From a virus, in IMG/VR virus record IMGVR_UViG_3300030390_000575, positions 1 to 21,343 of that record: a stretch of 21,343 nucleotides of DNA, one strand, 5' to 3'. Below the pieces are notes generated by a model that saw nothing but the letters and a program-made list of their open reading frames with translations, searched no databases and was not told where the DNA came from. Positions 2,299-21,343 of this stretch are shown here, one piece after another. Positions within the stretch are counted from its first letter, which is position 1. Every line of letters begins with the position of its first letter. Made by a program: the position numbers and the translations under genes.

Positions 2299-2458
2299 AG
2301 GGGACAAAGCAAGACCTCTGAAAGACAGAGCTAAGTTTGATAAGTCTTGGGATGATATCTTTGGACCTAAGAAAGGAGCCTTCGGCTCCCTTACGGAAAC
2401 TGAGAAGAGAAAAGAAAATGACAAACGTGCTAATAGTGAAGTGTTCCGACCAAAGTAA
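2288..2458 (+). CDS. Hypothetical small basic protein, 56 aa
   Basis: A short frame beginning MSGKGDKARPLKDR and ending SEVFRPK. There are two adjacent ATGs at 2285 and 2288. The SD AAGGGAG at 2275-2281 is 6 bases from 2288 and only 3 from 2285, so I chose 2288. The protein is rich in Lys, Arg, Asp and Glu, probably mostly unstructured, with a short SWDDIFGPKK segment. The frame overlaps the preceding stop by 11 bases and the following start by 41 bases, consistent with the dense packing of this operon. An internal hairpin at 2375-2389 lies in its coding sequence. No known family. Confidence 0.55.
   Translation: MSGKGDKARPLKDRAKFDKSWDDIFGPKKGAFGSLTETEKRKENDKRANSEVFRPK
2375..2389 (+). other. 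Strong RNA hairpin inside a coding region
   Basis: GGAGCC-TTC-GGCTCC forms a 6-bp GC-rich stem, alternatively read with a UUCG-containing loop. No T-run follows, so it is not an intrinsic terminator. It sits 28 bases upstream of the next start codon (2418) and could shape mRNA processing or translation of that gene. Confidence 0.4.
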
Positions 2459-2597
2459 ATGGTACAGTAACCAAGTAGGTAATGCATTCAGTGTTATCTC
2501 CGAAGAAGAGACAGAGTACATGGTACGGGAACCTGAAGGTTACCTTAATTTCATATCTAAGAAAGACGTAGAGGAAGTTAGCTATGGTCCAGCTTAA
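2418..2597 (+). CDS. Hypothetical protein, 59 aa
   Basis: Starts MTNVLIVKCSDQSKWYSNQVG and contains EYMVREPEGYLNFISKKDVEEV, which looks like a compact beta-rich small domain; this kind of sequence is common in phage hypothetical proteins. An upstream in-frame ATG at 2337 exists but lies inside the previous gene and has no SD. ATG 2418 has a purine-rich leader (AGAAGAGAAAAGAAA) and gives the conserved-looking protein, so it is preferred. The stop overlaps the endonuclease VII start by 14 bp. Confidence 0.6.
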   Translation: MTNVLIVKCSDQSKWYSNQVGNAFSVISEEETEYMVREPEGYLNFISKKDVEEVSYGPA

Positions 2598-2961
2598 GAC
2601 CTGTAATAAGTGCAGAGTAAAGAAAGAAGAAACAGATTTCCCGATGGAGAGTGGTAGAGGGTACCGTAAGACTACCTGTAGGCTCTGTATCTGGTCTGTA
2701 GATAAAGTACGTAAAGAACTTAGGCTTATCACCCCAAAGCCCCCAGAAGACCATCAGTGCCCCGTATGCTTACGGAATGAAGATGAGGCTTATGGTTGCG
2801 GAGGTAGGAACAAGTCCCCTTGGGCTATGGATCACGATCACCTAACAAGTAAATTCAGAGGTTGGCTATGCCACTCCTGCAATAGAACCTTAGGGGGCCT
2901 TAAGGACGACTTCGGTGCCTTAGATCGTATCAGAGAGTACCTTAAGAAAGGAAGAGACTAA
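2584..2961 (+). CDS. Recombination endonuclease VII (HNH, Holliday junction resolvase)
   Basis: 125 aa. Zinc ligands C59-x-x-C62 and C96-x-x-C99 frame the ββα-metal (HNH) signature DHDH at 83-86, followed by W-L-C-H-S-CN-R-x-LG, the hallmark of the T4 gp49 endonuclease VII family. An extra pair, C7-x-x-C10 and C32-x-x-C35, suggests a second zinc knuckle at the N terminus, as seen in many phage members. The family cuts branched DNA before packaging. Here it occupies the place that endonuclease I (gene 3) holds in T7, just before the DNA polymerase. SD is weak (GAGGAAG upstream) and the start overlaps the previous gene by 14 bp. Confidence 0.92.
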   Translation: MVQLKTCNKCRVKKEETDFPMESGRGYRKTTCRLCIWSVDKVRKELRLITPKPPEDHQCPVCLRNEDEAYGCGGRNKSPWAMDHDHLTSKFRGWLCHSCNRTLGGLKDDFGALDRIREYLKKGRD

Positions 2962-7795: not shown

Positions 7796-9898
7796 ATGTC
7801 TAACGCTATAGAAGAAGTAGCACAGTACATACGTAGCAATAGGGGAGGTGCCTTGGGTAGACAACACTCAGGCATCAGGATCCTAAGGCGACATATGGGC
7901 TATGGTATTGAATACGAGGAGCTTGTCATATGTGCAGTACAAGCTGCTGTAGGTGTCTTCTTAAGGTCTCGTGGTAAAGTCTTCAAGCTAACAATAACAT
8001 CAACGTCAATAGGTCTAGCAGTGCTCTCCAGAATAGGAGTCGTCAATGCAACCTACGAAGAACTCTTCGCAGTTGGTGACCTGTTACTCGAAGCCTTCCT
8101 ACAACTTAAATTTGTAGAGATCGAAAGAGAATACGATGGGTATCATGCACCGTATATAATATTCCTAACAGAAAGATGGGAGGAGCTAGGGGACGTACCC
8201 CCAGAGTTCCAGAGAGCAACCCTAACTGGCACTAGCTTTAGAGCTTTCCCTCCGATATCAGGGCTAAGAAACCCTGTAACCAAGAGGCCGTATATCAAAC
8301 GTATGACCTCTGAGGGGGACTTTAACCAATGCCTAGGCAAACCCTTTGTTAATGCGCTAGATAAGCTACAAGCTGTCGCTTGGCACCTTAACGGGGACCT
8401 TGTGAAAGCTGTACGGGATAACGTCAGGGATTTCATAGATCTCGAAGATAAATCCATCAAAGCTAGATCAAAGCGTATCGAAATGAAGTTTGTTCTAAAC
8501 AAAGCAAGGGCTATTGGTGACGAAACATTCTACCAAGCAGTCGAGTGTGACTATAGGGGCCGTGTATATTACACTGAGTCCTTCCTTAACTATCAAGGAT
8601 CTGATATCGCCAAGGGACTCTTTGAGTTTAGCGAAAGCAAACCTATGGACGAGCGAGGGTTCTTCTGGTTATGTGTACACACCGCTTGTTCTTACAACCA
8701 ATCATACACAATAGAGGAGTTAGGCTCATTAGAATGGCTCAGCGAAGACTACACAAGGCATCTGCAAGAAGAAGACTTGGATACTATCTCAGTGGACAAG
8801 ATGACTCTACTGGATCGATCACTGTGGACAATCAACAACCAGAAAGCTCTGATAGAAGATGCAGCAAACCTGAGGTTCCGTATGGAAGCCGAAAAGCCAG
8901 TGACATTACTAGCATGCTCGTTAGACCTTAAGGGCTACATAGAGTCCGAGGGTGTCTACGAGTCTCGGCTACCTGTACCTGTGGATGGTTCAAACAATGG
9001 ATGGCAACACCTAGCTGCAATGTCTAAGGACAAACAAGCAGGGGAGTTAGTGTCTATTGTGCCTCAGAGAATCCAGAGAGACTTCTACGTCAAGGTTGCC
9101 AAGGCTCTTATAGATCTTATGCCTGAGTGGTTTAATGATAGGGCTATACCCATGAAGTATATCCGAAAGGGTATCACTAAGCGTGGTGCTATGACCCGAG
9201 CGTACTCTGCAGGTCAACGTAAGATAGCTGAGAACATGTTTAACGATTGCAAGGTGGAAGGTTATGATATCAAGTACAACATATCCGAAGAGGACTGTAC
9301 TGCTCTATCTAAGAAACTTATCCTAGCGATCAATGAGACATGTGTTGGTCCCCTAAAGACCATGAAGTTCCTCCAAAAGATAACTGACTTTGCTCTTGAG
9401 AGTGGTCAGACTTGTCTCCAGTGGACTACACCTTCAGGCTTCCCCGTACTCTACGAAGTATGGAAGCAGAAGAACCTATCGATCCGTGGGGTAATCAAAG
9501 GAGCTAACCTCGTAGCAAAGCAACAGATCAACCACAGCATTAAGGTGCCAGTCCTCGATAGAGACAGCAACCCTATAGCTTGCCGAAGATCCTTTGCGTC
9601 TGGGTGTTCACCTAACTTTGTACACTCTATGGATGCTGCTCATATGGCTAAGGTCATTGAGTCCTTTCCAGGAACTTTCGGAGCTATACATGACTCATTC
9701 TCGACACATGCTTGTGATGTAGACAAACTGCTTGAGCATACTAAGTGGCAGTTCGCCATGATGTACAACGTAGATAACTTCTTCAATCGTATAGAAGACA
9801 TGATCCTTGAGGACCGTGAAGGCTACGAAGTAAAACAACCAGATCTCGGTGATCTGAAAATAGAGGAAGTGGTCAGTTCGGATTACTTCTTTTCTTAA
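7796..9898 (+). CDS. T7-like single-subunit DNA-directed RNA polymerase
   Basis: 700 aa, about 180 shorter than T7 RNA polymerase, with most of the loss in the N-terminal promoter-binding domain. The catalytic core is complete. It has the DxxGR motif DYRGR at 252-256 and motif A DGSNNGWQH with Asp397 (T7 D537). Motif B is T-K462-RGAMTRAY470 (T7 K631, Y639), followed by the SPNFVHSMDAAH block at 605-616. Motif C is H632-D633 (T7 H811-D812). The C terminus SSDYFFS resembles the T7 foot, ESDFAFA. T7 R627 is replaced by Lys458 and G640 by Ser471. It follows the helicase, not first in the genome as in T7, so it is likely a middle-stage product that drives later genes. SD AAGGAAA precedes ATG 7796. 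Confidence 0.95.
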   Translation: MSNAIEEVAQYIRSNRGGALGRQHSGIRILRRHMGYGIEYEELVICAVQAAVGVFLRSRGKVFKLTITSTSIGLAVLSRIGVVNATYEELFAVGDLLLEAFLQLKFVEIEREYDGYHAPYIIFLTERWEELGDVPPEFQRATLTGTSFRAFPPISGLRNPVTKRPYIKRMTSEGDFNQCLGKPFVNALDKLQAVAWHLNGDLVKAVRDNVRDFIDLEDKSIKARSKRIEMKFVLNKARAIGDETFYQAVECDYRGRVYYTESFLNYQGSDIAKGLFEFSESKPMDERGFFWLCVHTACSYNQSYTIEELGSLEWLSEDYTRHLQEEDLDTISVDKMTLLDRSLWTINNQKALIEDAANLRFRMEAEKPVTLLACSLDLKGYIESEGVYESRLPVPVDGSNNGWQHLAAMSKDKQAGELVSIVPQRIQRDFYVKVAKALIDLMPEWFNDRAIPMKYIRKGITKRGAMTRAYSAGQRKIAENMFNDCKVEGYDIKYNISEEDCTALSKKLILAINETCVGPLKTMKFLQKITDFALESGQTCLQWTTPSGFPVLYEVWKQKNLSIRGVIKGANLVAKQQINHSIKVPVLDRDSNPIACRRSFASGCSPNFVHSMDAAHMAKVIESFPGTFGAIHDSFSTHACDVDKLLEHTKWQFAMMYNVDNFFNRIEDMILEDREGYEVKQPDLGDLKIEEVVSSDYFFS

Positions 9899-9918: not shown

Positions 9919-10185
9919 ATGTCATATCAAATTATGGAAGACTTAGAAAACAACGTAGTAGACTGGGCGACATGTAAAGGTCTTGTAACAGGGCTCTCCC
10001 CATTGCAGCACTTAGAGGAGTCCCAAAGAACTATGGATTACCTTGAGGTAGCGTTCAATGATAACCCAGAGTACCTTGAGAATGAGATAGGTAATCTACT
10101 AGTCAGCTTAACCCTGCTTGCAAAAACCTCGGGCACTACGCTAACAGAATGCTTAGCGGTAGCCTACGATAACCTAACAGTATAA
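9919..10185 (+). CDS. MazG-like NTP pyrophosphohydrolase relative, probably degenerate
   Basis: 88 aa, all-helical. It has the layout of small phage MazG-like proteins: W16 with KGL near 20-22, LEE at 32-34, a second helix pair ENEIGN at 54-59, and a closing LTECLAVAYDNL like the usual ECLE-x-AY end. In active MazG enzymes the metal site is EExxE with ExxD. Here these read EESQR (Arg37 for Glu) and EIGN (Asn59 for Asp), so two ligands are changed. It may be an inactive relative used for binding or regulation, or a diverged enzyme. SD AAAGGAAAAC precedes the ATG; the AT-rich gap before it holds TTAATTAATTAA. Confidence 0.6.
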   Translation: MSYQIMEDLENNVVDWATCKGLVTGLSPLQHLEESQRTMDYLEVAFNDNPEYLENEIGNLLVSLTLLAKTSGTTLTECLAVAYDNLTV

Positions 10186-10198
10186 TTGGAGAATAACT

Positions 10199-10462
10199 AT
10201 GAATAAGTCACACAACATTATGAGAATGGAAGGCGTAGATGATATGGATTACGTGAATGAGCTTGGGCTAAACCCTGAGCTTGCGTACACCCCAGAAATC
10301 AATGAAGCTATCTTACAGAGTGTAGCAGCAGCAAACTACCAAGGTTACATTGAGCAGGGCAGGAGCCCCGAAGAAGCTGAAGCCTTTAAGGCTAAGATGG
10401 TCGCCTTCGGTAGGGCTAACATAGCCGAAGCGTTACCTGCCTTGGCTAAAGCTGGACACTAA
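10199..10462 (+). CDS. Hypothetical protein, 87 aa, last rightward gene
   Basis: A soluble, acidic N-terminal half (MRMEGVDDMDYVNELGLNPEL) is followed by helices rich in Ala and Glu (GYIEQGRSPEEAEAFKAKMVAFGRANIAEALPAL). SD TTGGAGAATAACT precedes the ATG at 10199. I do not recognise a family. It lies directly before the terminators that end the rightward block, so it should be strongly transcribed along with the RNA polymerase and MazG-like genes. Confidence 0.65.
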   Translation: MNKSHNIMRMEGVDDMDYVNELGLNPELAYTPEINEAILQSVAAANYQGYIEQGRSPEEAEAFKAKMVAFGRANIAEALPALAKAGH

Positions 10463-10511: not shown

Positions 10512-10547
10512 GGATCACTCAGATACTTGAGTGGTCCTATTTTTTTT
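10512..10547 (+). terminator. Intrinsic terminator for the rightward replication operon
   Basis: A 10-bp stem, GGATCACTCA at 10512-10521 with TGAGTGGTCC at 10528-10537 (one G-T pair), with loop GATACT, is followed by TAT and a T-run to 10547. It overlaps the stop codon of the convergent minus-strand gene, so rightward and leftward transcripts overlap in antisense by several tens of bases. Confidence 0.85.
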
Positions 10548-13500
10548 ATCTTAGTAAGCTTAAGACATCCGAACTAAGTCCGATATCATCTGCGGCATAC
10601 TGTAGGACTTCCTGTCCTGTCCTTTCCCCTTCTTTAACTTTACTTATAATGCTCTTACGTCCAGCTTCAGATCTCTCCATGAGCTTACTGTAGTTAGGTT
10701 TAAAGTTAGGATAGATGTGCCTAGCTAAGAGACGTTGTGCTTGCTCTAATGCTTGGTACGTTCTGGCTTCGTTTATAACTACACCCTTATCATCTTTGTG
10801 CTGCTGGAGTTCTTCTCTAAGTAGCTTAGCTTGATTGACAACACTAGCATCATCCCCAAAGTCCTTGAAAGTTAATAGGGATACCAAGTGATCAGCTAAC
10901 ATACCATGCTCAGCCTCGTTGATAACACCAGTCCTTTCCTTTGCAAGTTCTCTAAAGATCGCTGGGCCCTCTGAAGCAGCCTTACCTACGCTGTCCCCGA
11001 AGTCCTTAAAGATCTGAGCCTTAGATGCCATGTCAAACCAGTTCTTATTGATAGCTTCCCTAGCTACATGCTGAGAACCTAAGTCTGGGATGATAGCGTC
11101 AAAGATACCTAGCAAGAATGGTTGCCCACCTACTGCCGAAGACATCTTCTTCCAAGAGTCACCACTAAAAGTCTTAACCATAGCAGCTCCATCTAACGAC
11201 TGAGCCATTGAAGGTCCAACCTGACCCCTTGCCTGACCACCTGATATGCCACCACGAGAAGCTAAAGGTGTTGTCCTTGAGACTTTCTCTTTAACTAACA
11301 TAGATGATGTGCCACCAGAACCAGAAGTAGACAGCTGGCCCCTTAGGGTTTCCGCTAGCTTCTTGTTGCCTTGTCTGTCGGCCTTAGCTATCCTGCGGTT
11401 AAGGCTATCGTCACGCTTACCTTGCTTACCTGAGGTCTTATCAATAGGCTTAGTTGTTTTAAGGTCAGAAGTAGCACCAGTATACTGAGTCTCCTTTCCA
11501 ACAAAGGAAGTTGAACCTCCTGCTGGATTGTTAACCGAGATAGCTATGCCATATAACTGACCGTACTCAACACCTTCCTTAAGTAGACCCTGCATTTCCA
11601 TAACATTCGGTCCCAAAGAGAACTCAAGTGCTTGGTGACGTACACCTTGCAGGAAGTTAGCAGCTGCCACTACGCCACCCCCATTTGGGAAAGCCTCAGC
11701 GCTTGCTAACAAGACAGGGTTAGATGTGATTGTATCGTAGACTGAATCAATAAGGTTATGCGCCTCTTGTCCGTATGCAAACGTAAGCATTGGGGACTTT
11801 CGGAAGTTAGCCTTGTCTTGGTTCGCCAGTTCAATCAACTTACGTAAGGCAGGTATATCTTCCTCAGAGTACTTATGCTCTTCTTGGAACTCCTTATTGA
11901 ACATAACTAGGGATGACACCTCATTAGATAAGTTCTGCTTTAGCATCTGGTCAAGAGTGTCCCTAAGGTCTCCTTTGTACTCAGAGTCAATAGACAGGTC
12001 ACCCGTGGAAGGTAGGTCTTTCCAGAACCCTAGGACTTCGTTAGCACCCTCCGCTCTCAGTACGCCAGTTCTATATTGCTGGTCTTCTAGTCCGAGAGAT
12101 AGGACAAGTGTAGCTAGTCCGTTGGAGATTCCATCGATCTCTACAGGAGAGACAGATAGGTGTGCAGATGTACCTTCTATACGTGCAGCTTCATAGTCTG
12201 ACAGAGCCATTAGGTAGTCGAGTACTTGGATAGAGTTGTGGTGAGACTTAGGTTGAACAGCTAGGGCCTCAAGGAACCTGTTTAATTCAACGTCTGCTGC
12301 CATTCCCTCTGGCCTTACATCAACTAGACCTTTGATACCCTTAAGTCCCTGAGGCGTAGCTTGTAGTCCTGCTAGTGCAGCTTGTGCTTTGTCCCTATCA
12401 AACTCAGACAGATACTTCTTGAGCTTAGTGCCCATCGCAACGGCACCTTTGTAGGTAGGACTGTTAGATCTGATGTGACCCAGTGCAGTCGAAAGCTGAG
12501 CTTCTGGCTTAAGTTTCCCGCCATTGAATAAGATAACACTTACGTTCTCTAAGAAGTTAGTCTCAACCTGTGAGCCACCCAAGGGTTTAACTGCGTACTT
12601 AACACCAGAACCTACTGCTTGACGCATGAGGTGGTGTTGTTGGAACGTACCCTGTTGTCCTGTGTGGAGTCTCTGGGTTCCCGTCTGTGTGACGAAGGTG
12701 TGGTAGAAAGGTTTGTCACCTTGGTTAAGGATAGTAGTTACAACCTCTAAGCTTTTATTAGCTTCCTGAAAGAACAATGCCCTCATAGAGTTAGTTCCAG
12801 TATCAGGGTTAGTCCCAGTCTCTGAGAACCTAGCTATAGATTCATTCTTAGCTGCAATCTCCTCAAGCAAAGCGAATTGCCTAGGACCGCTAGCAGTCTC
12901 AGCCTTCTCCATCAACTGATCTCTCTCAGCTACCATACGTGGTGCGATAGCTTGTATCTTAGCGATACTCTGAGGACCTATACCAACCATATTGTGTGCG
13001 TAGTTGTGATCCTTACCTAGTCCTGCTTGCGGTGAAGTGCCGAAGGCAGATACACCAAGCATTAGAATAAGGTCTCCACGTCTCTTATCGATAACGATAG
13101 GTACGCTAGACATATTATCCTTAGCCTCCGCTAGTGCCTGAGACTTAGGGTTAGGTACCACACCAGTTGAAGTCTTTAGTAGACTGTTCTCGTACTGGTA
13201 TGCACCGTCTGTTGGTTTAGTTTGTAAGAAGTCAGCCTTGAAATCAGGGACCTTGACTCTGCTCTTATCTAAAATCAACCGACCTTCTGGTGACAGTTCA
13301 TAAGTCTTAGCTCTACCTTCTGCCCAGTTACCTTCATTTACAGTGACCATGTTTGGTGCGATGCTCGCATAAAGGTCAAGAATAGAGTGGCTAACAGCTT
13401 CAAAAGCTGCAGGGGTAGTACCCTTGTAATCCTCCAAGTATGAATCAGTTGGTTCTCCATTTCGGTATGCCCTATCTCTTCGGATAGTTTGGAATGCCTT

Positions 13501-14376
13501 ACGCCCGAAAGCCTGAGGTGAGTTATCAGGTCTGTCGTTAGCTGGGTTGTTCATATCTAACAAGGCTTCAGCATCAGACTGTTCGACTTCACTTGGCTTG
13601 TTGTACAGGTAGTCTTCCACGGTAGCTGCAATATTCGGAATAGCTCTTGGGTCGATTATTGTAGGCTGTACGTTAGACAGCTCGGAGTAGTTAGATACCT
13701 TACCTTCGGAGTCAACCTTAACTTCGGACGCTTTAAAGTTAGGGTTACGTATACCAATACCTAAGCCCTTTGGGTGTGTAATAATGTTAGTCCGGTTAGC
13801 TTGCAGTGGGAGGTCCTTATGCATACGTACAAAGCCTTCAGGGTTCTTCTCCAGTTCCTGTGCCCCAGCAGCCTCAAGACCCTCTGAGTACTCTTTAGTG
13901 TTAGGCTGGAAGTTATCACCGAAGGATGCTGCATAAGCTACAGGTGTAGTTACTGGAGAAAAGAATTGACTCTCCCCTGCCATACCCCTGAACCTCTCAG
14001 TAGTCTCTTGCCCTAACTGAGTTTCCATGTTAGAGAGATCAGCCTCAATCCCTGAGGCTTCTAGCGGAGCCTGAACTCTCTCCGCTTCTCTCTGTGCTAA
14101 CTCTTCCTGACCTTCTGGGGGTACACCCACCTCCTCCTGAGAGGGTGCCTCCAACATAGCTTCACCCATTGTCTCAGGTTCTACTTCATTGTCCCAACCT
14201 GAGTAGTCCTCTTCTGCAATAGCAAGGGACTCAACGGGTGTCTCAAAATCAGGGGCAGCTATGACATCACTCTGTTCTTCTTGAAACGCATTTGCCTCGA
14301 CAGCTTGCGACATCATCTGCTCTTGCAGAAGTTGTAAATCTTGAGCGGATTGCCCCTGTATTTTAGCTCTAGCCAT
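10546..14376 (-). CDS. Putative virion RNA polymerase (N4 vRNAP-like single-subunit RNAP)
   Basis: 1276 aa. An acidic, low-complexity N terminus (about 1-130) is followed by a large region with no motif I know. From about 560 it carries T7-superfamily RNA polymerase motifs in order. A likely TxxGR-type motif is TGTQR (565-569) with QQG soon after. Motif A is EIDGISNG with Asp748. Motif B is K860-SPMLTFAYG with Tyr868, the same 8-residue K-to-Y step as T7 and N4. A block PSMAQSLDGAAMVKT (1055-1069) parallels T7 PNFVHSQDGSHLRKT. Motif C is LLGIFDAIIPD with Asp1093, where T7 has LIHDSFGTIP. The A-to-B distance (112) is close to that I recall for N4 vRNAP (D559 to K670, 111). It is the last gene of the leftward late block, as in N4, so packaging and injection are likely but inferred. 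SD AGGAGAA precedes ATG 14376. Confidence 0.82.
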   Translation of the reverse strand: MARAKIQGQSAQDLQLLQEQMMSQAVEANAFQEEQSDVIAAPDFETPVESLAIAEEDYSGWDNEVEPETMGEAMLEAPSQEEVGVPPEGQEELAQREAERVQAPLEASGIEADLSNMETQLGQETTERFRGMAGESQFFSPVTTPVAYAASFGDNFQPNTKEYSEGLEAAGAQELEKNPEGFVRMHKDLPLQANRTNIITHPKGLGIGIRNPNFKASEVKVDSEGKVSNYSELSNVQPTIIDPRAIPNIAATVEDYLYNKPSEVEQSDAEALLDMNNPANDRPDNSPQAFGRKAFQTIRRDRAYRNGEPTDSYLEDYKGTTPAAFEAVSHSILDLYASIAPNMVTVNEGNWAEGRAKTYELSPEGRLILDKSRVKVPDFKADFLQTKPTDGAYQYENSLLKTSTGVVPNPKSQALAEAKDNMSSVPIVIDKRRGDLILMLGVSAFGTSPQAGLGKDHNYAHNMVGIGPQSIAKIQAIAPRMVAERDQLMEKAETASGPRQFALLEEIAAKNESIARFSETGTNPDTGTNSMRALFFQEANKSLEVVTTILNQGDKPFYHTFVTQTGTQRLHTGQQGTFQQHHLMRQAVGSGVKYAVKPLGGSQVETNFLENVSVILFNGGKLKPEAQLSTALGHIRSNSPTYKGAVAMGTKLKKYLSEFDRDKAQAALAGLQATPQGLKGIKGLVDVRPEGMAADVELNRFLEALAVQPKSHHNSIQVLDYLMALSDYEAARIEGTSAHLSVSPVEIDGISNGLATLVLSLGLEDQQYRTGVLRAEGANEVLGFWKDLPSTGDLSIDSEYKGDLRDTLDQMLKQNLSNEVSSLVMFNKEFQEEHKYSEEDIPALRKLIELANQDKANFRKSPMLTFAYGQEAHNLIDSVYDTITSNPVLLASAEAFPNGGGVVAAANFLQGVRHQALEFSLGPNVMEMQGLLKEGVEYGQLYGIAISVNNPAGGSTSFVGKETQYTGATSDLKTTKPIDKTSGKQGKRDDSLNRRIAKADRQGNKKLAETLRGQLSTSGSGGTSSMLVKEKVSRTTPLASRGGISGGQARGQVGPSMAQSLDGAAMVKTFSGDSWKKMSSAVGGQPFLLGIFDAIIPDLGSQHVAREAINKNWFDMASKAQIFKDFGDSVGKAASEGPAIFRELAKERTGVINEAEHGMLADHLVSLLTFKDFGDDASVVNQAKLLREELQQHKDDKGVVINEARTYQALEQAQRLLARHIYPNFKPNYSKLMERSEAGRKSIISKVKEGERTGQEVLQYAADDIGLSSDVLSLLR

Positions 14377-14379
14377 TGT

Positions 14380-17300
14380 TTATTCTCCTGTCCAATAGTT
14401 TGTTATTCTATGTTTTAGTGGTGATAGTAGAGGTGTTAGGCTTAGTGCAGCTTTAGCTGTAGTAGTCCCATCATCCTCAGTCATTGAATCTCCCAGCTTG
14501 TATACGTTCTTAACTATACCAAATGCTGGTGCTTCCCCTGAACCTGCTTCCCACATATTCATAGCCATACCTTTGTCTCTCCCCTCATACAAAGGGAACA
14601 CATTGGCTATAAGTCTCTCAGGTGTTCCTAATAGTCCTGACGAGTACAAAGCCCTCAGGTATTTTTTTTCATCTGTTAAGTATGGGGATGACCCACCGAA
14701 CTTAATGTAGTCCTTTATGTACTGAGCAGCGTAACCTAGCATAAGCATAGACATCAAACCTGCAAAGGTTGAGTACTTCATCCCTGGGGTTCCCTTAGCA
14801 ATAGTCTTCCAGATCCTAGGGATATGGTTAGCCGTAAACTGAGATGTGAATCCTTGGAACTGCATAAACAAACCTAGGTGTGGGTTGCTGTAAGCAAGTG
14901 GCCTACCCATAGCATTAGGCATAGGTACTGCACCATTGATAAAGTTATACAACCCGTTATCAAACTGCTTAGCCCACTTAGCGAGGACTTCTTCGTTATT
15001 CGGGTCAGCCTTAATCTGCCTTGAAAGGTTGAGCATCACGGACACAGGCATACCAAACTCCTCAAGAGTCTGCCTTGCCTCCATAGACTCGTTAGTTTCC
15101 CTACCACTAGTGTTACCCTCTATCTTATCTAAATTACTAGTCAAGAAGTCATTGAAAAGTGAAGCCCTAACTGTACGAGTTGCGTTAGTGACACCAGTTA
15201 GACCTATAACCTTAAAGAAAGTATCCATAGCTTGGTTAGCATTGGCATCTCCTGTATCGGATACACCAACTAGCGTAGCCTGACCTGTCTTTTGTGAACC
15301 AGACATACCCACTCGACCCAAAAGGGCCTTAGGGTTCTCGATGCTTATGTTCCTAGCATCTTGACCTACCCTCTTCTTACGAGAGTTAATAGCTGAGTCT
15401 AGTACACTACCCTTAGTTTTAAGGCCAGACTTTTCTAACTTAGAGTTCACACCAAAAACCCTACCCATCTCCTCTACGTAGCTGACTACCTCTTTGCCAA
15501 GTATAGCACCGAGAGAACCTACGTTCTCATTCAAGGATTTCATAGGTACGTTCATAGGTGCTAGTGCAAACTCAACCAAAGACATAGGTGCAGCCAGTGG
15601 TAGCATCGTTACAACACCGAAGAGTGTGAGGTTCTTCTGGATACCCTTAGCCATATCGCTTTCCAGTCTCTTATAGTTACCTGAGTCAGCGTTTATAAGG
15701 TCCCTTAGGTTCATAGCTAAGTCTTCCACTATTACATCTGCGTCTGGGTCTCCGTTGGACTTAAGCTCTGAGTGTACTTTATCTAACATGTTACCAAGAA
15801 GCTTATTGTTTTTTCCAATAAACTTAAGAGATCCCATGTAACGAGCAGCACCTTTCATACCAGCTTCAAGGTTATCGAAGATGTTATTGCTAAGGAACTT
15901 ATCAAACTCTTTATTGTCTGATATATCTAAGCTTCTCTTCTTGTAACCTGCAGGGTTCAAACCCCCCTTAGTTAAGTCAAAGGCATCATCAAGCATGCTA
16001 GCATCAGCATTGTCTAGGATAGTATCCGTGACTGCGATTGCATCATCTCGGCTCAGCTTCTTGTGGGTAACCAAGAGGCTAACGAACTCAGCCTTATTAG
16101 CCTGTATCACGTTCTTCTCAAAAGCCTTGGCTCTGAATACGTGATCCTGCAGCTTACCGATAGCCTCTTCCCCTGCCATAGATTGCCTAGCGGTGATATT
16201 GTTGTACATAACATTATCCACATCGTATAGCTCAGAGACCGTAAGCTTAAGAGCCTTGGTGTCGTCTCTGTACTTAGCTGGGAGGTTATCCCAGTCAATG
16301 GAAGCTATAACTTCTGGTCCCGTCATGTGCTCAGCGTTGCCCTTCCCTTTCCTAGTCAAAGGTTTAATAACATCTCTGTGGAAGTCGTATATCTTAGCAG
16401 ACACTTCAGACCTCATTTTACCGTAACCAGTCTCTTTGGTATTGAACCTACCAAGGGTGGGCATTATCTCAGTAATAGATTCCTCAAATAAAGTATAAGA
16501 TGCAACCTTGTCTGTGTGGAAATCTACTCCACCGTGAACTTGGTTCTTACGACCACCAAACATATCGTAGATTACACGGGAAGTCTTACTCTTATTTAAG
16601 AGATCAGTAGTCATACGGGTATCTAAGGCAGTTCGGAAAGCAGACATAGGGTCTTTAGCGAAATCACCTAACCAAGACATGCCGCCCTTAGCTTCCTTAC
16701 GAGATTGAGCGCGATCAGCTTGAGCCTCAAAGCTCATATCAACAGCCTCGTCGTTCATCATCCCATCGTACTCGCTACCAGTAGCCCCTGTGGTCGGCCT
16801 AGCTCTAGTCCTACCTGTGTTAGCTCTAGCATCCATGTGCTCTTCTTCGAGAACAGCGTCAAGATCCCTGACATAACCACGCTCACCAGTTTCCTCGGCT
16901 TTCCATGCAGTTGCTGCATTATCAAACCTACCATCGTAATCACGGTTGGCAACCTCAGCGTCCCTCCAAGCCCCTGCATCGTATACAGAGCCTGGGGCAG
17001 AGAAAGCTGCACCCATAGTTCCTCCAGCAATAGCTGAGTTTATTAGCCTATTCTCCAAAGTGTCCCAATCCCAAGTCTTCTCAGACCCCATTACGGCAGC
17101 TGTGTAAGCTGTAAGCTCCTGAGCCATTTCAGTACTTCCCTCAAAGGCTGCACCTGAAGTGACCTTCTTAGAGAAGTCCTTCAGCATCCTAGTCTTAGTC
17201 AGCTGCTTCGCCATAAGCCCATCTATATCCTTAGCGTAAGACACTAACTCTCTCTTGGACAATCGTGTTAGGGCAAGCTCAGCTTGAGCCTTAGTTAGCT

Positions 17301-19110
17301 TACCTAGGCTTAGTGCGTCACCTGCTTGGTCACCCAACACATCCGTGATAGCCTTTAGTGATTGACCTGAGGCTTTCATCATCTTATCAACAACGAGATC
17401 CTTAGCTTCACCGTTAAGAACACTAGCAGCACCTACGGCCCCCTTGAGACCAAAGCGATCCAGTGCTGTATTCATGACACCAGCGACCATAGCTACTGCA
17501 TAATTCTTATCTTGTATAGCACCTTCCATTTCGTCCAACACTAAACCAGTGTGCATAGCCAATGGTGCAGTTAGGCTGAGTCCACCTGTTAGTGGTGATG
17601 CCGCTACGGCTGCTACGGTCACACCCATAAAGGGTATGGACATAGCTAGGTTGTTAGTTACGTACTCAGCTATTTCAGGTATGCTCGTCCAGTTAACATC
17701 TTTGTAGTCCAGACGTACCTTAGGTAGCTCCATAATTGTTTTCTTTCTAAAATCTACTGCTCCCTGCCAAGCATCCCTTGTGTCATCAAAGCCAGCCACA
17801 TCGGCAACCATAGAGCCCACTTGAGCCATAGAGTTCTTCAAAGTAACAGCAGCGACATTGAATGATTGGGAGAATGGAGTCTTAGACCTGTTGTCTAAGT
17901 ATGCACCCTTGTTCCTGAGAGTAACGCCAGAGTAGAAGTCTTCCATACCTGAGTAGTGTGACTCATCAAGAGCCATTTGCTTAGGCACTATCTGCCCTCC
18001 GCTCTCAGCAGTCTCCGCTTGACGTATAGTGTCAGCAGCTTGCTCATAGTCAGTCATAGGGGTCTTAGGGTCTCTGAGTTCTCTGTCAAGCACACCTGAC
18101 ACATACAGGTCATACTGATCTTCAGACATAGAGTAGTCAGACTTACCAAGAAATGACGGAGCTGCAATACCAGAACCTATTAACGCATCAGAAAGTAGTA
18201 CACCCTCAGCGTTCATTAAGTCTCCTTTCTTACGACCGTACCCAGCATCTTCGTCAGTGATAACCGCATTCGTAAAACCACCTTTCTCGATAACCATTGC
18301 TACTGCATCTGTAAACTCTTCTCCACCTTGGTCACCCCTCTGGAACCCACCTTTACGTGAGACCTTAGTTGTTTCCGGTGCATCAAACCCTCCAAAACGT
18401 ATGCTCTGTCCGGTCCTCTTATTGATCATGGTATCACCATCAATCAACTTATACTCTGAGTCTCCGATATCTCGGCTTGACTTAAGGGGTGCAGCCCCAG
18501 AAACTGCGTCTCCCTTTACAGGTGCAACCACTTCAGACTCCCCAGTTGTCCCTTCGGTACCCGATGCTTGTCCTCTAACAGCATCAGATAACCTCTTCAT
18601 TCTTTTGTGTACGCCAGAGCCTGACTTTATAGAGTCCCGATAGTCCTTGTTGTCAAGGAATTCATCTGCGGCTAGGTCGTACTCACCTTCGTTAAGGAGC
18701 CTTAGGAAATTAGGTGATCCACCTAGGTCCCCACGGTACTCGCCCTGCACTAACTCAGCTTGCAGGGTTTCTGGTAGTGAATCAAAAGAAGGCACCCGTC
18801 CCTTAGCTCTCTCAACGTGATGTTGAAATGCTGCTTCAAATCCCTTCTCAATCCACTCACCAGTTTGCCCAACACCTTGAGTAGTGATACCCTTAGTGTC
18901 AGTGTACGGAGTAGCAACGTACCCCTCTTCCTCTACCACTCGTTGCTCTGAGAAAGTAAGGGGTCTCCCCAAGCTCTCAGAGACTTTAGAAATTGCGTCA
19001 GAGCCGTAGTATACATCTTGCGCTACTGTTGGCTCATCTGCGGTTTCAAAGGTCGGGTCGAACTCAGTTCCATTTAAGGTGTCTACCTGTTCATCTGTAA
19101 TGTCGTTCAT
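14380..19110 (-). CDS. Giant internal virion (ejection) protein with lysozyme and SNase-like nuclease domains
   Basis: 1576 aa. Residues about 45-180 form a T4-type GH24 lysozyme domain. Glu62, Asp71 and Thr77 keep the exact E-x8-D-x5-T spacing of T4 lysozyme (E11, D20, T26), followed by QGVGQTG. Residues about 216-320 match staphylococcal nuclease: IDGDT (Asp226), R238, D243-x-x-E246 and YGR (R293), all the known metal and catalytic positions. The remainder is long and helical, with hydrophobic stretches at about 484-520, 1157-1187 and 1449-1466. Near the C terminus is an MQFQGFTSQF segment like that of other large podoviral internal proteins. The architecture suggests a T7 gp16-like protein that is ejected, opens peptidoglycan and forms part of a trans-envelope conduit. 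The SNase-like domain is unexpected. SD AGGAGAAA precedes ATG 19110, and the stop is 3 bases before the next gene. Confidence 0.85.
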   Translation of the reverse strand: MNDITDEQVDTLNGTEFDPTFETADEPTVAQDVYYGSDAISKVSESLGRPLTFSEQRVVEEEGYVATPYTDTKGITTQGVGQTGEWIEKGFEAAFQHHVERAKGRVPSFDSLPETLQAELVQGEYRGDLGGSPNFLRLLNEGEYDLAADEFLDNKDYRDSIKSGSGVHKRMKRLSDAVRGQASGTEGTTGESEVVAPVKGDAVSGAAPLKSSRDIGDSEYKLIDGDTMINKRTGQSIRFGGFDAPETTKVSRKGGFQRGDQGGEEFTDAVAMVIEKGGFTNAVITDEDAGYGRKKGDLMNAEGVLLSDALIGSGIAAPSFLGKSDYSMSEDQYDLYVSGVLDRELRDPKTPMTDYEQAADTIRQAETAESGGQIVPKQMALDESHYSGMEDFYSGVTLRNKGAYLDNRSKTPFSQSFNVAAVTLKNSMAQVGSMVADVAGFDDTRDAWQGAVDFRKKTIMELPKVRLDYKDVNWTSIPEIAEYVTNNLAMSIPFMGVTVAAVAASPLTGGLSLTAPLAMHTGLVLDEMEGAIQDKNYAVAMVAGVMNTALDRFGLKGAVGAASVLNGEAKDLVVDKMMKASGQSLKAITDVLGDQAGDALSLGKLTKAQAELALTRLSKRELVSYAKDIDGLMAKQLTKTRMLKDFSKKVTSGAAFEGSTEMAQELTAYTAAVMGSEKTWDWDTLENRLINSAIAGGTMGAAFSAPGSVYDAGAWRDAEVANRDYDGRFDNAATAWKAEETGERGYVRDLDAVLEEEHMDARANTGRTRARPTTGATGSEYDGMMNDEAVDMSFEAQADRAQSRKEAKGGMSWLGDFAKDPMSAFRTALDTRMTTDLLNKSKTSRVIYDMFGGRKNQVHGGVDFHTDKVASYTLFEESITEIMPTLGRFNTKETGYGKMRSEVSAKIYDFHRDVIKPLTRKGKGNAEHMTGPEVIASIDWDNLPAKYRDDTKALKLTVSELYDVDNVMYNNITARQSMAGEEAIGKLQDHVFRAKAFEKNVIQANKAEFVSLLVTHKKLSRDDAIAVTDTILDNADASMLDDAFDLTKGGLNPAGYKKRSLDISDNKEFDKFLSNNIFDNLEAGMKGAARYMGSLKFIGKNNKLLGNMLDKVHSELKSNGDPDADVIVEDLAMNLRDLINADSGNYKRLESDMAKGIQKNLTLFGVVTMLPLAAPMSLVEFALAPMNVPMKSLNENVGSLGAILGKEVVSYVEEMGRVFGVNSKLEKSGLKTKGSVLDSAINSRKKRVGQDARNISIENPKALLGRVGMSGSQKTGQATLVGVSDTGDANANQAMDTFFKVIGLTGVTNATRTVRASLFNDFLTSNLDKIEGNTSGRETNESMEARQTLEEFGMPVSVMLNLSRQIKADPNNEEVLAKWAKQFDNGLYNFINGAVPMPNAMGRPLAYSNPHLGLFMQFQGFTSQFTANHIPRIWKTIAKGTPGMKYSTFAGLMSMLMLGYAAQYIKDYIKFGGSSPYLTDEKKYLRALYSSGLLGTPERLIANVFPLYEGRDKGMAMNMWEAGSGEAPAFGIVKNVYKLGDSMTEDDGTTTAKAALSLTPLLSPLKHRITNYWTGE

Positions 19111-19134: not shown

Positions 19135-20997
19135 TTAAAGTAATCGTTGCCGATCAACCATAGCTCTTAGCTCAGGGGGTGACAAGCTTTGAACCCAAGC
19201 TAGTTCTGGAGACATCATCTCCGACTTGCCTAAATTCTCTGACTCCTCTGAGGCTGCTTCCCACCTTGCCTTGAAACCTGAACCTACGTTCTGGCTAGCA
19301 GTCTCGTAACCCTTGAGGGCTAAGATCCAAACATCAGCTGGCTTATCGCCCTTCACACCTGTAGCAATTCTTTTTATCTGACTCTCAGTAGTTGTGTACG
19401 CATTCATTCCTGAATCTAAATCAGTACCGTGTACCTTGAATACGTTATCCCGTAAGGAACCACCTTGCTTCATTCTCTTTTCCATAATTTCTCTGTTGTA
19501 GAAACCAACAAAGTCTTTACTTCCATTAGCAGATCCGTCAGCAAGAGCGTCAACCCACTTAGCTGCAGTCCTGTTAAACACAGTTCTTCCAGCTGGAGTA
19601 TTGAGATCAGCATTTGGGTATCTAGCCTGAATAGCTACGAGTGCTTCTTCCATTACGTGTGGTTGTGTACCTGCGTTAATACGAGACAAGCTTGCACCCT
19701 TATCCTTAGGGTTCATGTCTTCGTTAGCATCGTACTCTTCAACCTTATCATTCTTAAGTTGAACTAGAGTAGCAGAGCCTGAGTCCCTGTACTTCTCAAG
19801 AGCTTCGGATCTAGTCTCTCCACGGCCTGCGCTATACCTACCACCCTGCATTTGCATGAGGGCTGCGGCACTAACACTAGGTACAGCTACACCATCAGCA
19901 CCAGCGAATACGCTAGCATCATTAGGGTTGAAAGTCTGTCCATCTTTAGACCAAGTACCTTTTATATTTGTCTTAGTCTGAGAGTCATATATTTCAGTAC
20001 CATTTTTGTAGTCAATCGAAGATGCATCTCTGGCCTTAGCTATGCGAGTTGCTTCGGACTTACCGAAGGCTCTTGCGTTAGCTGCATCGGTCTGAGCTGT
20101 AGCTGCTTCCTTTCTCCACTCATTCTCTAGTACTTGAACAGCTAAGGTTGCACCATCATAGCCCATAGCCCTTGAAGCGGCATATGCAAACAGTGATCTA
20201 CGTATAGCAGGGTCTTCAAAGCCTCCCTTAACTGTACCCTTGATCCCACCCCATAGCTTCTGTAAGAAGTTAGGGTCTTCGGGATCACCTTTAGCAATCT
20301 CTTCATCAACAACTGCAGCATTCTCAGCTCCAATCTCAACAGCAGAAGAGTCAGCTTCGTCAGCAGTAACAATCTCTACTTGAACTAAGTCTTCTTGCGG
20401 CTGTAAGGGTTCAAGCTCTACTTGAGGTATATCCCGTTCTAGTTGTGGGAGTGTACCTTGTAGCTCTTCCTGCTGTGGAGTTAACATGCTTGGTACATCT
20501 ACCTGACCAGCTCTTTCCTCAGCAGCCTTAGCTTCCACTTCCCATTCCATTTTCTTAACAGCAGCTTCACGCTCCTGATTGACAAATGGGTTTAGTTCTG
20601 AGATAGAGTTCTGGTTGTTCTTGTTCTTGAACACAAGGTCGTCAAACTCCTTAAGCTCCTTAGGTGTTCGTGGTACTCGCTCTGTAGGTACCATCTGAGG
20701 GCTATCCTGTATTGCAGGTACTGAAGGTACGTGACCTAAACCACCGACAGCCCCTGAAGTGTCAATGAAATCTGACACAGCCTGTGGAGCTAACGGGTCC
20801 TTAGGGACCTCTGGGAACATACCGGAAAAGTAGTCACCCTGAGGTGCAGCAACGGGAGCTTTAGGGGGCTGTGGGATATTACCGCCACTGCCAGCTATCA
20901 AAGGTACTGGTCTAGACTGTACACCTTTCTCCTCGTCATCTATGTTACCGATAAGACTCATGACACCATCAAACATTGTTTTAAAATCATTAGCCAT
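19135..20997 (-). CDS. Probable internal virion protein, 620 aa
   Basis: A Pro-, Gln- and Glu-rich, probably disordered N-terminal half (to about residue 240) is followed by LQKLWGGIKGTVKGGFEDPAI. Next comes an Ala-rich helical region (RRSLFAYAASRAMGYDGATLAVQ, then long helices with many Ala and Glu to about 330). The C-terminal part is helical and lacks a known motif. No signal peptide. The DPAxRRSLFAYAAS pattern resembles internal core or ejection proteins of podoviruses, where a short glycine-rich segment leads a helical bundle. Its place just upstream of the lysozyme-nuclease gene matches T7 gp14/gp15 relative to gp16. SD AAGGGGAAT precedes ATG 20997. The assignment rests mostly on context. 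Confidence 0.6.
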   Translation of the reverse strand: MANDFKTMFDGVMSLIGNIDDEEKGVQSRPVPLIAGSGGNIPQPPKAPVAAPQGDYFSGMFPEVPKDPLAPQAVSDFIDTSGAVGGLGHVPSVPAIQDSPQMVPTERVPRTPKELKEFDDLVFKNKNNQNSISELNPFVNQEREAAVKKMEWEVEAKAAEERAGQVDVPSMLTPQQEELQGTLPQLERDIPQVELEPLQPQEDLVQVEIVTADEADSSAVEIGAENAAVVDEEIAKGDPEDPNFLQKLWGGIKGTVKGGFEDPAIRRSLFAYAASRAMGYDGATLAVQVLENEWRKEAATAQTDAANARAFGKSEATRIAKARDASSIDYKNGTEIYDSQTKTNIKGTWSKDGQTFNPNDASVFAGADGVAVPSVSAAALMQMQGGRYSAGRGETRSEALEKYRDSGSATLVQLKNDKVEEYDANEDMNPKDKGASLSRINAGTQPHVMEEALVAIQARYPNADLNTPAGRTVFNRTAAKWVDALADGSANGSKDFVGFYNREIMEKRMKQGGSLRDNVFKVHGTDLDSGMNAYTTTESQIKRIATGVKGDKPADVWILALKGYETASQNVGSGFKARWEAASEESENLGKSEMMSPELAWVQSLSPPELRAMVDRQRLL

Positions 20998-21008
20998 TTT
21001 TATTCCCC

Positions 21009-21343
21009 TTAACGCATTCCGCGTGTGTGATTGCGCCTCTTCATGCGCTCTTGCTGATTAACCATAGCTTGGTTATATAGGTTAGCTTGTGGTTGGTTAC
21101 CTTGGTTCTGCATAGCCATGCTTGGTCCAGCTTGCGGAGGTGGTGGTCCTTCCTTAGGCATAGCACCTTGAATAAGCATAGGTGCCATAGTCTTAGCGAA
21201 GCCAGACATGCCCCCACCAGCAGCAGGTACAGCGGATCCAGCAGCTCCAACGGCAGCAGGTATGGCAGCAGGTATGGCAGCTCCAGCAGCAGCAGGTATG
21301 GCAGCTCCAGCAGCAGCAGGTATGGCAGCTCCAGCAGCAGCAG
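21009..21343 (-). CDS. Ala/Gly/Pro-rich repeat protein, N terminus cut by window edge
   Basis: The C-terminal 111 residues of a gene that runs off the right edge with no stop codon in frame. The upstream portion is an octapeptide repeat of Ala, Gly, Ile and Pro (AAAGAAIP), three units plus a shortened one. It is followed by a Gly-rich linker and a Pro/Gln/Asn-rich tail (KEGPPPPQAGPSMAMQNQG) ending NHTRGMR. An internal ATG at 21209 gives a 66-aa product, but it has no clear SD and the open frame continues upstream, so I prefer the longer partial gene. Low-complexity proteins like this can be linkers, fibre or adhesin parts, or virion scaffolds. Placed first among the visible late genes, it is probably a structural component. 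Confidence 0.6.
   Translation of the reverse strand, partial: AAAGAAIPAAAGAAIPAAAGAAIPAAIPAAVGAAGSAVPAAGGGMSGFAKTMAPMLIQGAMPKEGPPPPQAGPSMAMQNQGNQPQANLYNQAMVNQQERMKRRNHTRGMR
21259..21343 (+). repeat. 24-bp tandem repeat, three copies plus a half unit
   Basis: Units at 21271-21294, 21295-21318 and 21319-21342 are identical (begin GGTATGGCAGC, end CCAGCAGCAGCA). A 12-bp shortened unit sits at 21259-21270, and the array reaches the window edge. The 24-base period keeps the reading frame of the minus-strand gene, encoding an octapeptide, so it is a protein-coding minisatellite prone to copy-number change. Confidence 0.85.

Follow-up and report, generated by a model that had tools for sequence, protein, structure and literature searches.

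To our knowledge, a virion-packaged single-subunit RNA polymerase (RNAP) is regarded as the defining trait of a single phage family, N4 and its relatives with their giant enzyme. The locus described here raises the question of whether a far more compact enzyme of this kind is encoded beside an ordinary T7-like RNAP. The window, by which we mean the whole stretch of DNA analysed, is a 21.3-kb virus record from IMG/VR (IMGVR_UViG_3300030390_000575, 21,343 nucleotides) from a phage related to the marine podophage CRP-7. In its rightward block are genes for an endonuclease VII-like protein, DNA polymerase A, an exonuclease, a GIY-YIG protein, a primase-helicase and a 700-aa T7-like RNAP; the leftward block, convergent with it, encodes the very large proteins P0001, P0002 and P0003 (Table 1). 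A cut open reading frame at the window end (21009-21341, minus strand) encodes an alanine/proline-rich tandem repeat of AAAGAAIP units. An earlier sequence-only reading had proposed that P0001 is a second RNAP, of the N4 virion type. The minus-strand frame that it named is real, and the interval that it singled out covers residues ~556 to the end of the protein.

Table 1. Positions in the window of the genes, motifs and candidate promoter discussed in the text.
Feature	Position	Strand	Details
Candidate hairpin promoter, GGAGCC-TTC-GGCTCC	2375..2389	+	Template loop GAA, C-G closed as in N4
Endonuclease VII-like gene, 3' of candidate hairpin	2584..2961	+	PHROG 2633, 1.6e-18
Second RNA polymerase, single-chain T7-like	7796..9898	+	700 aa, 13 cysteines; Pfam RNA_pol
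P0001, putative compact virion-type RNA polymerase	10546..14376	-	1276 aa, 0 cysteine
P0001 motif C, I1091-A1094 IFDA, catalytic D1093	11095..11106	-	hhalign with T7 and family alignment
P0001 PSMAQSLDGAAMVKT block ahead of motif C, residues 1055-1069	11170..11214	-	hhalign with T7
P0001 motif B, K860-Q870 KSPMLTFAYGQ	11767..11799	-	hhalign and family alignment
P0001 motif A, E746-G753 EIDGISNG, catalytic D748	12118..12141	-	hhalign and family alignment
P0001 R569, counterpart of N4 R424, in QTGTQR	12670..12672	-	hhalign; 44/44 covering members
P0002, probable ejection protein	14380..19110	-	1576 aa, 0 cysteine
P0003, probable virion protein (from position)	19135..20997	-	620 aa, 0 cysteine

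Every block named in the sequence-only reading lies at the residue given for it: D748 in EIDGISNG, K860 and Y868 in KSPMLTFAYG, the PSMAQSLDGAAMVKT block, and D1093 in IFDA. P0001 therefore has motifs A, B and C in the order, and with the Asp, Lys/Tyr and Asp residues, of a T7-like single-subunit RNAP, and its motif A fits the ExDGxxxG signature given for N4 virion RNAPs (vRNAPs) (PMC10654107). Profile alignment with hhalign, to which no motif was supplied, paired R569, D748, K860 and Y868 with R424, D559, K670 and Y678 of N4; against T7 it paired D748, K860, Y868 and D1093 with D537, K631, Y639 and D812, and D1062 with the Asp of T7 HSQDG. Because these pairings with the catalytic residues of both enzymes arose without motif input, the blocks are not chance resemblances. 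Two details of the earlier reading need adjustment. The spacing of motifs A and B does resemble that of N4 (112 residues as against 111), but it ranges from 87 to 112 across the P0001 family, so that spacing alone is weak evidence. FDA is indeed found at motif C, where the family pattern is [IV][FY]D, but this does not set P0001 apart from N4, in which motif C is IFDG. N4 and T7 have an important arginine four positions ahead of the motif-B Lys (N4 R666, T7 R627); P0001 lacks it, hhalign pairing it with A856, and the family has D, A, S, K, T, N or G there. Of the DxxGR motif (TxxGR in N4), the Arg is invariant in the family (44/44), but no Gly immediately precedes it (TGTQR, TGTSR, LANTR).

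As a single sequence, P0001 had no useful match in Pfam, PHROGs, PDB (phmmer), phages (tblastn) or viral_contigs (peptide patterns), its sole PHROG match (E = 0.024) being to a PHROG of unknown function. A HMMER search of PDB sequences with the family profile missed N4 and returned one chance match (E = 1.1). Profile-profile comparison revealed a different picture: the P0001 family profile (37 full-length members, 23 after redundancy filtering) matched 13 N4-like vRNAP domains with Prob 97.8 and E = 1.3e-12, and 11 diverse T7-type RNAPs with Prob 96.0 and E = 4.2e-9, in an alignment that reaches motif C. It matched three full-length N4-like proteins with Prob 90.2. Controls (polA, primase, P0003 and reversed profiles) gave Prob ≤0.6, or ≤1.2 with a rebuilt P0002 set. 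A T7-like profile built solely from the group's own RNAPs matched the family at Prob 17, a value that reflects a thin profile, since the diverse T7-type enzymes raised the match to 96.0. The failed single-sequence and HMMER searches would suit an account in which the motif matches are coincidental and P0001 is a large helical virion protein with no relation to the polymerases; given the profile-profile E values with their null controls, and the fold matches below, we consider this extremely improbable. These E values and the invariance of the catalytic residues support the interpretation of P0001 as an RNAP.

That invariance emerged from a survey of relatives. The T7-like RNAP has relatives at 41 IMG/VR loci; in all 30 that reach at least 1300 nt past this gene, a leftward frame lies next to it, and 28 of the 30 frames were verified as P0001 relatives (25 directly and L019, L020 and L032 via the same contigs, with two short fragments, L027 and L038, outside the check). 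The T7-like protein itself matches Pfam RNA_pol (4.3e-51) and PHROG 414 (1.2e-104), and the claim that the phage has two polymerases thus holds at the level of sequence. Scanning IMG/VR with the family alignment yielded 62 loci, several of them on the same contigs as the RNAP loci: L107, and 61 others whose homologs are compact or truncated. Once identical sequences and L107 were removed, the conservation alignment held 52 sequences, the window included; many members are near-copies of one another (hence 23 of 37 kept by hhalign), and many are just 20-26% identical to P0001. K860, P862, T865, Y868, G869, Q870 and D1093 are identical in all 52, and D748, G749, N752 and G753 in all 49 that cover motif A, in which the Glu (E746) is E in 44 and A in 5; R569 is invariant in the 44 that cover it. 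The missing motif-B arginine and the strong divergence of the family could indicate a pseudoenzyme, a former polymerase that now serves, without activity, in structure or ejection. We think this very unlikely, as no covering member differs in either catalytic Asp, in the Lys or in the Tyr, down to ~20% overall identity.

The sequence-only reading implied a right-hand polymerase fold, and a single-subunit RNAP fold of this type is what the predicted model of P0001 displays. An AlphaFold model of residues 120-1276 (pLDDT 75.7, pTM 0.69) was compared with PDB structures. With Foldseek, the 50 matches listed, out of 70 at E ≤0.001, were all T7, mitochondrial or N4 RNAPs (T7 3e3j, 5.5e-12; N4 2po4, 3.1e-11); with VIA-align, the same was true of 50 of 50 matches listed (T7 1s76, Z 18.8 over 572 residues at 6.2 Å; N4 2po4, Z 15.6 over 601 residues at 6.1 Å). 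Among viral models, most of the named matches listed were T7-like or N4-like RNAPs, and some were unnamed or a coil-containing protein. The fold scores show no preference for N4 over T7, and VIA-align scores T7 higher; moreover, the N4 and T7 profiles resemble each other (E = 1.5e-14) more than the family resembles N4 (E = 1.3e-12). The P0001 family is therefore not demonstrated to be the sister of the N4 vRNAPs. At L107 (4529-15415), the family scan also brought up a giant protein of 3629 aa that is cysteine-free and has an EIDGISNG motif. This protein matches both the N4 profile and the P0001-family profile (Prob 92.9 for the latter) and, judged by these matches, links the compact proteins to the N4-like vRNAPs.

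How far does P0001 resemble N4 gp50, the vRNAP of Schitoviridae (mini-vRNAP PDB 2PO4 / 9PNQ)? The two have in common a single-subunit RNAP core, a Glu two residues before the motif-A Asp, an IFD[A/G] motif C, a lack of cysteine and a leftward gene. As the sequence-only reading stated, P0001 is far smaller, at 1276 aa about a third of gp50 (~3500 aa); reference gp50-type vRNAPs span 2842-3820 aa, with N-terminal and C-terminal domains (PMC10654107), the latter autoinhibitory in N4 (PMC12633501). In length, P0001 matches the mini-vRNAP core preceded by ~190 residues, which leaves no room for either giant domain. The partner polymerase differs as well, being a single 700-aa chain here and the heterodimeric RNAPII (gp15/gp16) in Schitoviridae. 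Only two of the species that have a vRNAP homolog are reported to be without a heterodimeric RNAP, and vRNAPs were inferred to have come first (PMC4496689); the P0001 group supplies the missing combination of a vRNAP-type protein with a single-chain RNAP. With the T7-type enzymes of Autographiviridae, P0001 shares the fold, motifs A, B and C, and the block that precedes the last of these. BLAST and HMMER did not align it with them and, unlike them, it is free of cysteine and is encoded in the leftward block, in a phage that also has an ordinary T7-like RNAP.

We next consider whether P0001 is packaged. The fold and motifs by themselves do not establish this, and P0001 could be an active polymerase that stays out of the particle, a second intracellular phage RNAP, for instance for late genes. 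Two features point the other way. Firstly, P0001 lacks cysteine entirely, although the frequency of this residue in the window's rightward block predicts ~21; of the 52 family members, 50 are likewise cysteine-free (L075 and L099 have one each), as are 13/13 N4-like domains and 4/4 giant proteins (three proteins being common to both sets), P0003 and 12/12 P0002 homologs. The T7-like RNAPs of the same phage group, by contrast, have 13-16 cysteines (13/13). Absence of cysteine has been named as a trait of N4 vRNAPs (PMC8515928, PMC10747016). It does extend beyond ejection proteins: in CRP-7, cysteine is also missing from gp51, a tail protein of 1166 aa, and from several smaller products such as the exonuclease gp28. 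Secondly, the P0001 gene lies, as had been noted, at the convergent end of the leftward late block, where this meets the early/replication block; VBP32, pYD6-A and D517 have their vRNAP genes in the same position, and N4 gp50 is leftward. P0001 also adjoins P0002, whose lysozyme-like N-terminal part (residues 32-201; a weak Phage_lysozyme match, under the Pfam cut-off) resembles the start of some Vibrio N4-like vRNAP genes (VBP32, pVa5). In view of this shared lack of cysteine and of the gene's place among those for large proteins, we regard a polymerase confined to the cell as unlikely, and think it likely that P0001 is packaged in the virion and injected, so that transcription can begin.

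The neighbouring proteins gave some further observations. A lysozyme-like N-terminus such as that of P0002 is also common to the endolysin / internal virion protein of Alteromonas R8W. P0003 had no family match in Pfam or PHROGs. We make no claim that P0002 in its entirety represents the part of gp50 that P0001 lacks: the N4 profile matched P0002 homologs at 58.9%, and these matched full-length N4-like proteins at Prob 100, but both matches were traced to the presence of VBP32 in the set and vanished once the P0002 set was rebuilt from syntenic loci.

The closest isolate by T7-like RNAP is the Roseobacter podophage CRP-7 (MK613349), with 34.3% identity and the same layout. Its gp34 is homologous to P0002 (hhalign E = 7.5e-45), and gp33, annotated as hypothetical, takes the place of P0001 beside gp34, with a similar length and 0 cysteine. 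Comparison of gp33 with P0001 gave no significant sequence link (best profile Prob 9.3), and a model of a CRP-7-type gp33 was of low confidence (pLDDT 37.1, pTM 0.24). In a protein of this type from L002 (23988-27695), SDARQSNAG, LYGK and IHDA blocks can be seen by eye in order; CRP-7 itself has ADARQSNAG. From its position, these motifs and its lack of cysteine, gp33 is possibly a further branch of the P0001 family. The CRP-7 paper assigns the RNAP to ORF30, calls the RCA phages non-N4-like and, in the portion available to us, makes no mention of gp33 (PMC6918029). Large helical cysteine-free proteins of the podophage StenR_269 and of Zobellviridae have been suggested as vRNAPs outside Schitoviridae on the grounds of size, helicity and lack of cysteine (PMC10747016); by that description they are like P0001.

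If P0001 acts as N4 vRNAP does, its promoters may be recognizable. N4 vRNAP requires a template-strand hairpin with the loop 5'-G(A/G)A-3' closed by a C-G pair, and reads a G at -8 (PMC4496689; the P1 oligonucleotide is given in PMC12633501). On the coding strand this corresponds to C-TTC-G or C-TCC-G, which we sought with stems of at least 5 bp, a rule set after TTC loops had been seen and so not fixed in advance. The N4 control (41 kb) contained exactly three such hairpins, all rightward and within the first 5 kb. These we take to be the known promoters P1-P3. Eight pieces from the P0001 group (203 kb) contained 11 on the rightward strand, including three tandem copies in G001 and with G006 excluded as its near-copy, and 2 on the other strand; resampling by a first-order Markov model, which is not an exact dinucleotide shuffle, gave a rightward mean of 0.7 and a maximum of 3 in 60 runs. 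One of the other-strand hairpins falls in the window's primase gene, and one of the rightward ones in the L012 virion block. A general search for hairpins exceeded the resampled mean in most regions, but in several the count lay within the resampled maximum.

Two places recur. Upstream of endonuclease VII, a 6-bp hairpin with an N4 loop occurs in 6 of the 10 distinct sequences that have enough DNA there (the window, L004, L005, L011, L043 and L149); L010, L024, L135 and L140 have none. The RNAP of L010 is 77% identical to that of the window, and no hairpin of the N4 rule lies within 1600 nt upstream of its endonuclease VII. At the second place, a hairpin lies 48-86 nt ahead of one orthologous early frame in G001, G006, G002 and G007; G009 has the frame without the hairpin. 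Scanning of pieces of G003, G005 (early side), G008, G009 and CRP-7 yielded no N4-loop hairpin. The first scan was restricted to TTC and TCC loops, and was repeated at both places without this restriction. In the ten endonuclease VII stretches, the any-loop search returned 11 hairpins with stems of at least 6 bp: the same six, and five with unrelated, AT-richer stems. The six have a TTC or TCC loop only, a change that corresponds to variation at -11 tolerated by N4 vRNAP, and their stems (GGAGCC, GAGCCC, AAGGCC) differ with compensation, while the overlapping peptide changes.

The C-T(T/C)C-G loop is thus alike in N4 and several genomes of the P0001 group, and these hairpins are probable candidate promoters for P0001. 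Not every N4 feature is kept: the template base at -8 is C in the window, and in the other hairpins checked it is C, or A in the tandem copies, in place of N4's G; the hairpins ahead of endonuclease VII are without the T-tract that follows N4 promoter stems. There is a sizeable chance, if short of even, that P0001 is virion-borne and the C-TTC-G hairpins are terminators or RNA-processing elements, with the true promoters elsewhere. The hairpins are GC-rich, CTTTT comes directly after the GAGCC-TTC-GGCTC copies in G001 and G006, several polymerase-carrying genomes are without hairpins, and the -8G is missing, all of which would suit such elements. Against this, no T-run follows any of the six copies ahead of endonuclease VII, and the GC-rich hairpin at this place keeps its TTC or TCC loop, with compensating stems, even when any loop is admitted.

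Another repeat was seen in the divergent early region of the G001 contig (reverse complement of 26600-59827, ~10070-10362; L136), where five tandem repeats lie ~73 bp apart; G006 has at least two of the same type (458-531; L140). Each contains a CTCAC-TTC/TGC-GTGAG hairpin within a longer TCAGACA...TGTCTGA inverted repeat. They may serve as promoters, as an origin or as a packaging site.

Together, the sequence comparisons and the predicted fold indicate that P0001 is very probably a second, compact RNAP of this phage. The fuller proposal, which we hold to be probable, is that it is a catalytically competent, DNA-dependent single-subunit RNAP, similar to the N4 virion enzyme in a compact stand-alone form, that is packaged, injected and hairpin-reading; for its N4-type virion part we draw on gene position, the shared absence of cysteine and the N4-loop hairpins. 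P0001 would be made together with its cysteine-free neighbours and packaged, and would enter the cell along with the first DNA. There it would bind small template-strand hairpins (loop GAA or GGA, C-G closed) upstream of early genes, and its transcription of these genes would lead to expression of the single-chain T7-like RNAP, which would take over later transcription. More tentatively, and less probably than not, these phages may form a podophage lineage outside Schitoviridae with a minimal N4 strategy, in which an injected, hairpin-reading, stand-alone RNAP of ~1250 aa is succeeded by a single-chain T7-like RNAP. Such a system would stand near the pre-fusion state that gave rise to the giant gp50 and the split RNAPII; this would fit the inference that vRNAPs predate heterodimeric RNAPs (PMC4496689).

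The literature searched, which covers the subject in part, does not describe a compact virion RNAP of the P0001 kind. A published survey discarded related proteins of less than 2500 aa (PMC10654107), so that compact forms would be missed by design. If our reading is true, the virion-RNAP strategy would extend to phages related to the cultured podophage CRP-7, and the polymerase would be separated from the giant ejection domains. P0001 and its relatives would then offer a natural enzyme of ~1250 aa for the study of injection, of hairpin promoters and of the origin of N4 transcription.
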